From positions 1 to 36,878 of the forward strand of contig WQSX01000027.1 of NCBI GenBank assembly GCA_009787625.1: 36,878 nucleotides of DNA, given 5' to 3'. The notes under the pieces are model-generated. The model ran no database searches. It saw only the letters and a list, made by a program, of their open reading frames with translations, and was not told where the DNA came from. Each line of letters begins with the position of its first letter. Position 1 is the first letter of the stretch. The position numbers and the translations under genes are program-made. Source of the DNA: Oscillospiraceae bacterium (GTDB taxonomy: Bacteria > Bacillota > Clostridia > Oscillospirales > Oscillospiraceae). Below, in pieces: positions 8,913 to 12,563 of this stretch.

Positions 8913-9983
8913 ATGCGTACATTAAAATCAATTCTTACTACGGCAATCGTATTATTATCAACCGCTCTCCTCGGCATCACTGCCGAGGCTGCGGGGGGGT
9001 ATTCGATATCACCTGAATTGCCCGACAACCAAATTCCTGAGACACACGGCTTTTTTGACCTCTATGTCTCGGCAGGTGATCAACAAATAACCATGTTTAT
9101 TGTCAATGATAATGACTTTGAAGCGACGTTCGAGATAAACCACTTTGCGGTCAGCACCAATATGAACGGTGTACTCGACTATACTGCTCCCGCTATTGCT
9201 GATGAGTCTCTGAAATATAACTTTGCGGACATTGCTTCTCTCGGTGTTGACTCGAAAGTTACTGTCCCGGCGAACACGTCCCTACCCGTAACGCTTAATT
9301 TGAACATTCCGCAGGGTGGGTTTGACGGCGTAGTGCTTGGTGCTGTTCACTTTTTACGCGATGCCACAGAGGAAGAGCTCGATAATTCAGGAATGTTCGT
9401 CAATCGTTTTGCGCACGTCATGATTGTCCGTTTGCAAGAGCGGGGTGCCGCAGAAGTAGCGCCTGATTTTATGCTCGGAGATGTGAGAGCCGAAACGATA
9501 AACTACACAGCCGCAATAGTCGCCGAGCTCAGAAATCCAATGCCCCGTCTCTCCATGGGTGCAAAGGTAAGTGCTGAAATTTTCGCTTCGGATTATGATG
9601 CTCCGATTTTCAGTGTGACTGATATGGATGTGGACTTCGCACCTAACACAGTGTTTCCTCTAACCATTTCCGACGAAGCGGGATATGGATTACACCCCGG
9701 TGATTATCTAGGAAAATTCAAGATAACTTTTGATGACAGAACCTGGGAGTTTGAACGTGAGTTTCACATCGCTCCGACTACAGCGGCAGAGGTGAATGCA
9801 GCTGCGCTCAACCAAGTAAATCATGTGCCCCAATACGCAACAGAAAAGACAATCATTTACATCTTTATAGGTGCAGGCATACTTTTAGCAACTCTAATTA
9901 TAACTTTTGTGGCCGTTAGGGGCAGAAAGTCCTACAAACGAGACTTGGAGCGTCTGCACGAGGCAGTGCAGTACAGCAAATAG
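8913..9983 (+). CDS. WxL-interacting protein (DUF916-DUF3324)
   Basis: The 356-residue protein has the classic layout of this family. It has a signal peptide (cleavage near AEA, residue 27) and the DUF916 immunoglobulin-like domain beginning GYSISPELPDNQI, with FFDLYVSAGDQQ and the conserved IPQGGFDGVVLGAVHFL. The DUF3324 domain (about residues 175-300) follows, and then a single C-terminal membrane helix (IIYIFIGAGILLATLIITFVAV) before a basic cytoplasmic tail. These proteins bind both WxL domains and peptidoglycan and hold the complex at the cell surface. GGAGG lies 10 nt before the ATG. Its place between two WxL genes matches the csc-type clusters of lactobacilli and enterococci. Confidence 0.93.
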   Translation: MRTLKSILTTAIVLLSTALLGITAEAAGGYSISPELPDNQIPETHGFFDLYVSAGDQQITMFIVNDNDFEATFEINHFAVSTNMNGVLDYTAPAIADESLKYNFADIASLGVDSKVTVPANTSLPVTLNLNIPQGGFDGVVLGAVHFLRDATEEELDNSGMFVNRFAHVMIVRLQERGAAEVAPDFMLGDVRAETINYTAAIVAELRNPMPRLSMGAKVSAEIFASDYDAPIFSVTDMDVDFAPNTVFPLTISDEAGYGLHPGDYLGKFKITFDDRTWEFEREFHIAPTTAAEVNAAALNQVNHVPQYATEKTIIYIFIGAGILLATLIITFVAVRGRKSYKRDLERLHEAVQYSK

Positions 9984-9997
9984 TCGGTTCGGCCGCC

Positions 9998-10093
9998 GCA
10001 GATGACGGGCAATTTGTTCCGCTTTTTTGCGAGCCATCGGGATCTACACCGCTGTTCTCACAAAAAAGACTCCACAAACTGCCCATCACCTGC
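9998..10093 (-). ncRNA. Structured hairpin element, copy 1
   Basis: A 96-nt stem-loop lies 14 bp after the WxLIP stop. The outer arms 9998-10017 and 10074-10093 pair at 17 of 20 positions. The inner arms 10022-10033 and 10057-10068 pair at 11 of 12. The terminal loop (23 nt, 10034-10056) and the internal loop (4 x 5 nt) are identical to copy 2. All four mismatches are A-C on the plus strand, which become G-U wobbles in a minus-strand RNA, so I assign the minus strand. The role is unknown: it could be a small RNA, an mRNA-end structure or a mobile palindrome. Confidence 0.6.
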
Positions 10094-10142
10094 TAACCTT
10101 TGAGCAATATACGCACAGTACAACGTAGACAAGGAGTACGTA

Positions 10143-12392
10143 ATGAAGACAAGAACCAGAATTATTTCAATCATGGTGTGCATTTTAATGCTTGCGACAC
10201 TGGTACCACCCGGCATTATCTTGCTTTCACAGGCACATACAGCTGCTGCCGATGATAATATTTATGAAACTGAGCATGCAGAAGTTACTGCTCCTGACAT
10301 CCCTGATCAGTTCCATGATACCGATTTCATTGAGTTTGAAGAAATTGCTCAAGTTTCGGACATTGCATCGCTTGATGATGAGTACGTGGCTGAAGAGGCC
10401 TTCTCTCTCGAATATGAGAGCAATGACACAGATACTGTCGACCCAGAAGAAGTCAACCAAGATGCAGATACTGCCGAGCTCGAAGATGATGAGCCGAATA
10501 TGCCGGATGAGCAGGTTGAAGCAGAACCCGAACATTTGCCGAACACACACACTGTATTCTTTATTTCGGAAGGCACCTCAGTTCCCATGCAGATTGTAAA
10601 CACCGGAGATACCGCCACTCCCCCACCTTCACCGACCCGTGCCGACTGGACTTTCATGCACTGGTCTCTTAGGGAAAATGGTGCTCCGTTTAATTTTGAT
10701 ACACCGATTTTAGGCAACACCGTGCTTTTTGCGGTGTGGAGTGATGGCCGGTTGGCTGAATATACTGTCGTTGTCTGGATTGAAAAGCCCAATATTGTAG
10801 GTGACCCCGGCACTAATAGCAGTAACTATATGTTCCACTCTTCCACTCGCCGCACCGATAATCAAAGGCGCGTTGCAGGTACTATGGCTGATTACACAAC
10901 ACTTGCCGCCGTTAATACTCTGCCGTCTTCCGCTCGAACTTTCACTGTTTCCAGCGGTGGTGTATGGGCTGAATTTCGACATGGTGAGAGTGCTATGGTG
11001 CGTGGCAATGGGACAACTGTTGTCAATGTATACTTTAAAAGGCTTGAGTTTGAGTACATCTTTGATATGCAAAGTCCCGGAACAACAAATGGTACCAACA
11101 GGCGCGCAAGAGCCATTCGTTTCCATGACGGCAGTGGACTTTACGGAAGAGGCACATATCCCGACGGCACAGTTTTAAGTGCGTATTCGTTTCGGGCAAA
11201 ATATGAGCAGGATATATGGGACTTATGGCCAAGCATCCAAACTGCTGACATTTACCAAACACGTCAGCAAGGTTCAGGCGGCAACTGGAACGGTGATCTA
11301 ACCGTTCAAGATAACTTCAGAGCTTGGCAAACTCCGTCAAATCTGCCGGGAGATTCAAAAATAATTACTCATAGGGATTCCATTTTAGAAAACATGGTTC
11401 CCAGAATGGGGTCGCCCGCAAGCAGAACAGTTACTTTTGAGGCAGAATTCGGCTCCACACATAAAATGGAAGCGACATACTGGTTTGAAGCACTCCCCCA
11501 TGAGCTGGGTCAGGAGGGTAATGAGACTTTGCGGTTCTCCTCCGGTCTGGGTTTTAAAGAGTATGCAAATTTTGAGCGTCTCAATCAGACTTTTCAAACT
11601 AACTTAACAAATATGTCTTATAGGCTTTTCAACGGTATGGAGTATGTCGGCAATAGCCACATCAGAAATCCGAGTGACGGTATTCATACGAAATTCAGGT
11701 TCTTTTTCACCCGCAACCGCTTTACTCTCAACTTTGATACACAGGGTGGCACGCCAATACCTGCCGTCAGCGATATAATGTTCGGCGATACCGTCGGGCG
11801 GCATCTTCCGGCAGATCCTCCGACGAAATTCCGTAACAATGGTGATCCTCTTGTCTTTGTGGGATGGTATCTTGATGCTGAGTTTTTCCAGCCACTAGAC
11901 CCGGCGATGACCATGCCAAACCGCAACCTCAAACTGTTTGCAAGGTGGACTTCAACTGTGATTATCCCGCCGAGCCTGGATTTTGGAGTCCATATGGTTT
12001 CTCCAACAACTCAGGTTTACAGGCTGGATAAACAGGTGGGTAATGGCATGACTCCTTTAGATAAGGCGGACATTGTTATTTTAAACCCGGCGTCGCACGC
12101 ATGGCACCTAATGGTTCAGTTTGGCGACTCCCCCAGCGATTCGACTCTTAAAAATATGCTCCGTCTCGGCAGTAACGGCATCGTAGGCAGTGATGCGGCT
12201 TCCGTAATTCACAGCCGCGGCGATGTCTCAGATACCGAAAACGACGATGATTCCGTGGTTACGTATACAATTCCTTGGAGGTCTTTGATTGAAAATGACA
12301 AAGATATTCAGGTAGTAGTTCCGCCCGGCACCGGCACAGGGCACTACAAAGCGACACTAACATGGACGCTGGTACCCGACCTCATGGGGTAG
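10143..12392 (+). CDS. Large WxL surface protein with Listeria-Bacteroides repeats
   Basis: The 749-residue protein has a signal peptide (to about residue 37) and a strongly acidic Asp/Glu-rich segment (about 38-130). A first Listeria-Bacteroides repeat (TFMHWSLRENGAPFNFDTPI then LFAVWS, about 140-200) follows, then a long middle region without a recognised domain. A second repeat comes next (FTLNFDTQGGTPIP then FVGWYLDAEFF and LFARWT, about 525-605). It ends with a C-terminal WxL domain, with a proximal motif HAWHLMV and the distal GHYKATLTWTLVP close to the end. It should sit on peptidoglycan through the WxL domain and pair with the WxLIP upstream; the repeats suggest adhesion. AAGGAG is 7 nt before the ATG. 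Hairpin copy 2 lies just after its stop. Confidence 0.88.
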   Translation: MKTRTRIISIMVCILMLATLVPPGIILLSQAHTAAADDNIYETEHAEVTAPDIPDQFHDTDFIEFEEIAQVSDIASLDDEYVAEEAFSLEYESNDTDTVDPEEVNQDADTAELEDDEPNMPDEQVEAEPEHLPNTHTVFFISEGTSVPMQIVNTGDTATPPPSPTRADWTFMHWSLRENGAPFNFDTPILGNTVLFAVWSDGRLAEYTVVVWIEKPNIVGDPGTNSSNYMFHSSTRRTDNQRRVAGTMADYTTLAAVNTLPSSARTFTVSSGGVWAEFRHGESAMVRGNGTTVVNVYFKRLEFEYIFDMQSPGTTNGTNRRARAIRFHDGSGLYGRGTYPDGTVLSAYSFRAKYEQDIWDLWPSIQTADIYQTRQQGSGGNWNGDLTVQDNFRAWQTPSNLPGDSKIITHRDSILENMVPRMGSPASRTVTFEAEFGSTHKMEATYWFEALPHELGQEGNETLRFSSGLGFKEYANFERLNQTFQTNLTNMSYRLFNGMEYVGNSHIRNPSDGIHTKFRFFFTRNRFTLNFDTQGGTPIPAVSDIMFGDTVGRHLPADPPTKFRNNGDPLVFVGWYLDAEFFQPLDPAMTMPNRNLKLFARWTSTVIIPPSLDFGVHMVSPTTQVYRLDKQVGNGMTPLDKADIVILNPASHAWHLMVQFGDSPSDSTLKNMLRLGSNGIVGSDAASVIHSRGDVSDTENDDDSVVTYTIPWRSLIENDKDIQVVVPPGTGTGHYKATLTWTLVPDLMG

Positions 12393-12419
12393 GGTTGGTG
12401 GTGTTCGCCGTTGGTTCCC

Positions 12420-12515
12420 GCAGAGGGTGGGTTGTTTGTTCCGCATTTTTGCGAGCCATCGGGATCTACACCGCTGTTCTCGCAAAAATGACTCCACAAA
12501 CAACCCACCCTCTGC
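12420..12515 (-). ncRNA. Structured hairpin element, copy 2
   Basis: This is a 96-nt stem-loop with perfect arms: outer 12420-12439 with 12496-12515 (20 bp), inner 12444-12455 with 12479-12490 (12 bp). The 23-nt loop (12456-12478) and the 4 x 5 internal loop match copy 1 exactly. The stem sequences differ from copy 1 at many positions but keep pairing. It lies between the convergent WxL and luxR genes, so it could also act as a bidirectional transcript end, although neither side has a clear U-tract. The minus strand is assigned from the wobble pattern of copy 1 and would follow the luxR stop. Confidence 0.62.
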
Positions 12516-12563
12516 TACACTTTGGGAAAACCCTGTCCCAAACCGTCCCTTGTCTCGTTCAGT

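Follow-up and report, generated by a model that had tools for sequence, protein, structure and literature searches.

The window, which is the whole stretch of 36,878 nt analyzed here (contig WQSX01000027.1 of an Oscillospiraceae bacterium), carries two hairpins of 96 nt. Copy 1 is flanked by a gene for a WxL-interacting protein (window 8913-9983, with both Pfam domains, upstream of the hairpin) and by a gene with a Listeria-Bacteroides repeat domain, and copy 2 sits on the far side of the latter gene, between it and a gene for a luxR-type regulator. Each hairpin consists of an outer stem of 20 pairs, a 4 x 5 internal loop, an inner stem of 12 pairs and a 23-nt terminal loop, as follows (a strand is assigned to the whole hairpins, not to their parts):

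9998-10093, minus strand: copy 1, whole hairpin; the minus strand is the better pairing one
9998-10017: copy 1, outer stem, left arm
10018-10021: copy 1, internal loop, left (TCCG); some other family members pair these positions
10022-10033: copy 1, inner stem, left arm
10034-10056: copy 1, terminal loop, 23 nt; the section that hardly varies among the copies of this genome
10057-10068: copy 1, inner stem, right arm
10069-10073: copy 1, internal loop, right (ACTCC)
10074-10093: copy 1, outer stem, right arm
10094-10105: copy 1, weakly conserved flank (TAACCTTTGAGC); terminal repeat not recognizable
12420-12515, minus strand: copy 2, whole hairpin; both strands fold about equally well
12420-12439: copy 2, outer stem, left arm; all 20 positions paired
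12440-12443: copy 2, internal loop, left
12444-12455: copy 2, inner stem, left arm; all 12 positions paired
12456-12478: copy 2, terminal loop, the same as the loop of copy 1
12479-12490: copy 2, inner stem, right arm
12491-12495: copy 2, internal loop, right
12496-12515: copy 2, outer stem, right arm
12516-12527: copy 2, weakly conserved flank (TACACTTTGGGA); terminal repeat not recognizable

The first-pass annotation had described the terminal loops and the internal loops (TCCG / ACTCC) of the pair as identical, which was borne out when both copies were read again. Its count of the differences was also confirmed in detail: five pairs have changed on both sides between the copies (four in the outer stem, one in the inner stem) and four positions on one side only, all of the latter being A-C on the plus strand of the copy at 9998 and therefore G-U on the minus strand. 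The predicted folding energy of copy 1 is -55.0 kcal/mol (z -9.5) for the minus strand and -38.0 kcal/mol (z -6.8) for the plus strand, and that of copy 2 is -62.2 (z -11.7) and -60.7 kcal/mol (z -12.4), respectively, so that the strand difference is individually visible only in the copy at 9998; both copies, on either strand, are more stable than 200 of 200 shuffles. The right-side conservation noted earlier (TGCTA, then TTTG) is present, but it belongs to a weak flank consensus. No T-run could be read after either hairpin on either strand, and an intrinsic terminator was rejected as a candidate on this ground. Rfam gave no match on the window, and no family reached its gathering score (the best sub-threshold match on a copy was mir-1467, 24.3 of 90 bits, E 0.14), in line with the earlier statement that no named RNA family is known to have this loop. 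One window copy, compared by blastn with phage records and with plasmid records, had no match in either. A possible resemblance between the loop and a sequencing-adapter motif was set aside.

The search of the genome and its relatives with the loop and with covariance models, foreseen in the first-pass annotation, was productive. The loop core was found at 135 places of this genome (G000) within 3 mismatches (69 forward, 66 reverse), and the reversed loop pattern at none in the same search, so that the number of places is far above chance. In the 131 sequences extracted with a tolerance of 4 mismatches, where a copy lying at a contig break could be counted twice, the stems vary yet stay paired while the loop is near-constant, with a perfect 21-nt core in 118. 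Twelve contigs of this genome start or end at a copy (C11, C12, C19, C33, C35, C36, C47, C49, C55, C64, C70, C84); because contigs break at copies of the element, the assembly hides some of them. The flanks show almost no consensus past about ten bases, and pairing of the two flanks into a basal stem was no better than that of mismatched flanks in this genome and in G005, a sister species, and weakly above it over all copies of G018 (22) and G006 (14). Some copies deviate from the common form: in L136:1432-1567 and L165:1526-1662 part of a second repeat (GCGGGCGACCGAGACGGTCGCCCCTACA type) lies in the loop region, and a separate short palindromic repeat (GGGGACGATGGCAATCGTCCCGC) adjoins the hairpin element in L027, L038 and L141. 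In L144 and L152 the apical part appears by eye to be inverted relative to its own ends, suggesting flipping between the arms.

Two covariance models were built, R1 from 36 copies of this genome and R2 from 45 copies of 7 genomes. In the 36 copies, 98.6% of the cells were paired versus 87.1% after shuffling, and double-changed cells numbered 124 versus 29.2 after shuffling and 7-21 with slid partners, although common descent inflates these counts, as the copies are not independent. In the 45 copies, double changes occurred at 18 of the 20 outer pairs, and one G-U pair was retained as G-U in 35. The internal loop is dispensable, being paired with other letters in several copies.

The remaining mismatches differ between the strands. 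On the minus strand, 129 sequences with 20 outer pairs each contained 254 G-T and 24 A-C pairs, or 163 and 24 when one always-wobble column was excluded, as found by an arm finder that weighted the two kinds of mismatch alike. The excess of G-T was present alike in columns led by GC, AT, TA and CG (sums over the seven commonest types per column), and four sister species agree, with G-T:A-C ratios of 52:10, 29:4, 34:1 and 11:3 (the 11:3 comes from 7 copies, p 0.06). The fold is thus very probably selected on the minus strand, where G-T is tolerated and A-C rarely so, as had been read from the window pair.

The first-pass annotation had further tied the hairpins to the surface genes that they follow, as antisense elements, and this could not be upheld. 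Of 116 scored copies, 19 overlap open frames of at least 80 aa and were set aside, and copies with too short flanks were dropped; the 97 that are free lie near the ends of genes (median distances of 23 nt to the 3' ends and 45 nt to the 5' ends of their neighbors) and are found in both orientations between co-directional genes (44 versus 29 of 97). The placement of the wider family shows that the neighbors in the window are not special. Moreover, the wobble bias is the same whether co-directional neighbors transcribe the minus strand of the element (42:6) or its plus strand (59:8). The bias being independent of the direction of the neighbors, the strand preference is a property of the element and not of its neighbors. 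A terminator scan found 5 sites versus 3.0 expected, with a limit of 8 nt on the loop that makes it blind to these hairpins.

Some copies have ends. In this genome, an element with intact ends is bounded by GTAACTATTCACC / GTAACTGTTCAGT-type terminal repeats, with 8 duplicated bases on either side; the repeats start with GTAAC/GTTAC and agree with those of an IS66 element over about 11-13 nt. In the 123 of the 131 sequences that entered these analyses (those at contig ends were dropped), both ends were recognized in 13 copies, one in 19 and none in 91, with one substitution allowed, and the two window copies are among the last. Direct repeats of 8 bp (1 mismatch allowed) at one fixed offset flank 10 of the 123 copies versus at most 3 in 8 shuffles, and no further fixed offset was found in this set. 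Perfect 8-bp repeats with GTTACACTTCACA- or GTAACTAGTCACA-type ends were found around 4 of 22 copies in G018 and 2 of 14 in G006, and target duplications around none of the 33 copies in G005 and the 6 in G007. The duplication offsets give, by arithmetic, a full unit of 133-142 nt with an inner hairpin of ~97 nt. One copy of G006 (L217:5082-5188), the right end of which is truncated, is surrounded by a direct repeat of ~23 bases, as seen by eye, unlike the usual 8 bp.

In G006, a complete IS66-family element of 1895 bp (L270:1372-3266) encodes a transposase (NF033517, E 4e-77) and has the ends GTAACTATTCAGT / GTAACTGTTCAGT and an 8-bp duplication (CTTTTTCA); it is the one of 13 IS66 loci with both paired ends and a duplication, and model R1 had no match in any of the 13. 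This genome has one partial IS66 match (an open frame of 217 aa, E 1.2e-9; the bin is 95% complete), and G018 has none despite 75 model matches of the hairpin; IS66 is present in 7 of the 19 genomes of the genus and does not track the copy number of the hairpin. IS66 is described, in the partial text of PMC11946415, with 8-bp repeats and ends that start with GTAAGCG, so that the fit with the GTAAC/GTTAC of the present family lies in target length and first bases, not in the whole end.

Comparison with G005 (873,633 bases in 75 partly overlapping loci) revealed empty sites. For 20 copies both flanks were found; one locus (L015) was not colinear and was dropped, and at none of the 19 remaining sites did the model match a hairpin in G005. 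The gap in G005 is 65 nt or shorter at 12 of them and cannot hold the element, and it is longer at 7, again with no model match. The 12 short-gap sites give a net insertion with a median of 128 bp (mean 128 bp, sd 21). It follows that the compared copies came after the split from G005, or that G005 lost them. One site seems to be filled in both genomes (L143/L140, at a contig junction, versus L177), possibly by coincidence.

In part of the family we therefore find terminal inverted repeats, a duplication of fixed length, empty sites and a short unit lacking a transposase gene, as in miniature inverted-repeat transposable elements (MITEs), together with ends in common with an autonomous IS66 element (L270 in G006); an intact IS66 transposase was not found in the 95% complete bin of the present genome. 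We are highly confident that the family is an IS66-type MITE. The first-pass annotation had set a MITE match against a selected RNA structure; MITE ends are indeed there, yet together with a covarying fold.

Outside one genus of Oscillospiraceae the family is almost absent. Model R2 matched in 14 of 19 genomes of the genus (at least 150, 107, 75, 38, 30, 24, 16, 10, 6 and 3 matches in the richest ten and a single match in each of four others; a place may be counted on both of its strands), G005 being second in copy number and G018 having the 75 matches. Several of the weakest single matches (L323, L325, L331) look like unrelated palindromes. In 196 other genomes of the order, with stricter filters, one weak match each was obtained in 2. 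The commonest sister loop, searched in degenerate form in 84,980 species genomes, occurred in 53 stretches of four Oscillospiraceae bins and had no match in the viral contigs; the exact 21-nt core of the loop was absent from both the genome contigs and the viral contigs (in both searches the genome of the window is possibly outside the set). A search of 59 other genomes for the loop within 3 mismatches gave 3 single places, all at 3 mismatches and none in the 18 genomes of the same genus. The named sister bins are presumably of termite gut origin, judging by their isolate codes. The loop hardly changes inside a species or subfamily but differs from one to the next: one main loop is found here, several in G005, a GGGCGAYRAGACCC-type loop in G018, G006 and G007, and other types in G008 and G009. 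Tandem CCGCTTACTGCTCA-like units adjoin a copy of G005 (L177, about 1008-1095).

Copies that lack terminal repeats keep their loop. It is perfect in 83 of the 91 copies with no recognizable ends (0.5% substitutions per site) and in 10 of the 13 with both ends, which thus do no better. G008 and G009, a close pair, have one locus in common at which the hairpin shows 1 change in 98 positions and its flanks 77 in 995 (Fisher p 0.007). At a second shared locus the hairpin is inverted in one of the two species and has 3 substitutions (two of which form one compensatory pair) and 22 gap positions versus 30 of 400 in the flank, and is not clearly slower than the flank; at a third, another hairpin appears by eye to be nested inside in G009. 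Hairpins that are 98-100% alike also occur in unlike flanks, and about 99 identical letters are common to four contig ends whose flanks are unlike, a hint that the hairpin may be copied or converted by itself. From the end-less copies with perfect loops and the shared loci we lean to selection on inserted copies, and selection in place after insertion seems to us slightly the better supposition.

This last set of data bears on the question of what moves. The hairpin might itself be the mobile unit, copied via a minus strand that folds (either RNA or, like REP/TnpA-REP, single-stranded DNA), with IS66-type ends confined to a sub-group and the fold selected during copying instead of in place. 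The 91 of 123 copies without terminal repeats, the flanks of end-less copies of this genome, which pair left to right no better than mismatched ones, the near-identical hairpins in unlike flanks and the indifference of the wobble bias to local transcription would all fit such copying, but we regard it as unlikely. The copy-richest genomes, G000 and G005 (bins 95% and 90% complete), contain no match to a Y1 transposase (PF01797) or a reverse transcriptase (PF00078), the net insertion has a median of 128 bp and is thus longer than the 97-nt hairpin, although a unit of ~120 nt would still be compatible, and this genome lacks a second fixed-offset target duplication. Both enzymes were accordingly rejected as movers: PF01797 had no match in G018 either (G006 has Y1 matches), and one reverse transcriptase match each was found in G007, G009 and G018.

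A palindrome may also be maintained neutrally, template switching copying one arm onto the other and gene conversion homogenizing the loop, with no function needed. Arm-to-arm exchange does happen, as the apical inversions (L144, L152) and the inverted shared locus of G008 and G009 indicate, and the species-specific loops look homogenized. Nevertheless, template switching brings back perfect pairs and should leave G-T and A-C in equal numbers, against the 163:24 observed, and it is the loop that is homogenized and not the stems, so that we give this explanation little credence. Very improbable, too, is that each copy acts as a host regulatory RNA in the transcript of its neighbor (a terminator, stabilizer or riboregulator): the closeness of the copies to gene ends would suit such a role, but their orientation is mixed, the strand bias is indifferent to which strand is transcribed, and the T-run is missing from both window hairpins on both strands.

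A published description of this hairpin family was not found in the open-access literature. Bacterial MITEs with folded transcripts (ERIC, Correia, and QMITE2 of Coxiella; partial text of PMC10969869) are likewise short and intergenic, with terminal inverted repeats, short duplications, a stable hairpin and tens to hundreds of copies; the present family differs in its IS66-type ends (IS66 is absent from the main text of that paper) and, as far as the partial text goes, in a loop that is near-invariant within species and different between them and in its strand-specific retention of wobble pairs. BOX, RUP and SPRITE of pneumococcus (partial text of PMC3049150) resemble it as interspersed structured repeats with a structure from RNAalifold and with repeats inserted in repeats, a likeness by description and not by sequence; no analysis of covariation was seen there, the string "covari" being absent from that text. 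REP elements (TnpA-REP; partial text of PMC8266576) are also palindromic, mostly intergenic and present in many copies; they are described there as 20-50 nt long, preceded by GTAG and with a hairpin recognized as a single strand. In many copies of the present family TAG precedes the hairpin, as in REPs, but the hairpin measures ~97 nt, GTAG is not constant and the bases ahead of the stem vary; with PF01797 unmatched in G000, G005 and G018, a REP/TnpA-REP system was rejected. The IS66 family (partial text of PMC11946415) shares the 8-bp duplications, the ends of young copies of this genome start with GTAA, and the ends are those of the complete element of G006; unlike IS66, the hairpin element has no transposase gene.

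Taken together, we consider it reasonably probable that the family consists of old MITE copies that were moved by an IS66 transposase and whose minus-strand fold is kept by a factor that binds the loop. Both window hairpins would probably be old copies of a non-coding miniature transposable element of about 133-142 nt that have lost their former ends, and an IS66-family transposase with matching ends would be the most likely mover, acting in trans. The inner ~97 nt would form a hairpin whose minus strand must fold, and the minus-strand nucleic acid, which is likely RNA rather than single-stranded DNA, would be bound at its loop by a putative factor that differs between species; such binding would preserve the fold and the loop after the ends decay. 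A bolder reading, which we offer tentatively and think rather doubtful, is that more than 100 dispersed copies are each selected as minus-strand RNA (or single-stranded DNA), independent of local transcription, with a loop read by a species-specific partner, and that the loop was swapped genome-wide when species diverged, the repeats and their partner co-evolving like lock and key.

Folded repeats are common in bacteria, but sequence alone seldom allows a test of whether their fold matters. The genus studied here combines hundreds of copies, many compensatory changes, strand-specific wobble pairs, species-specific loops and empty sites, and this combination allows a direct test of whether selection acts on mobile hairpins where they sit, and through which partner. 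The functional strand of a repeat can be read from its wobble pairs, and a family with an unusually strict fold and loop is a good test case for the role of such repeats in bacteria.
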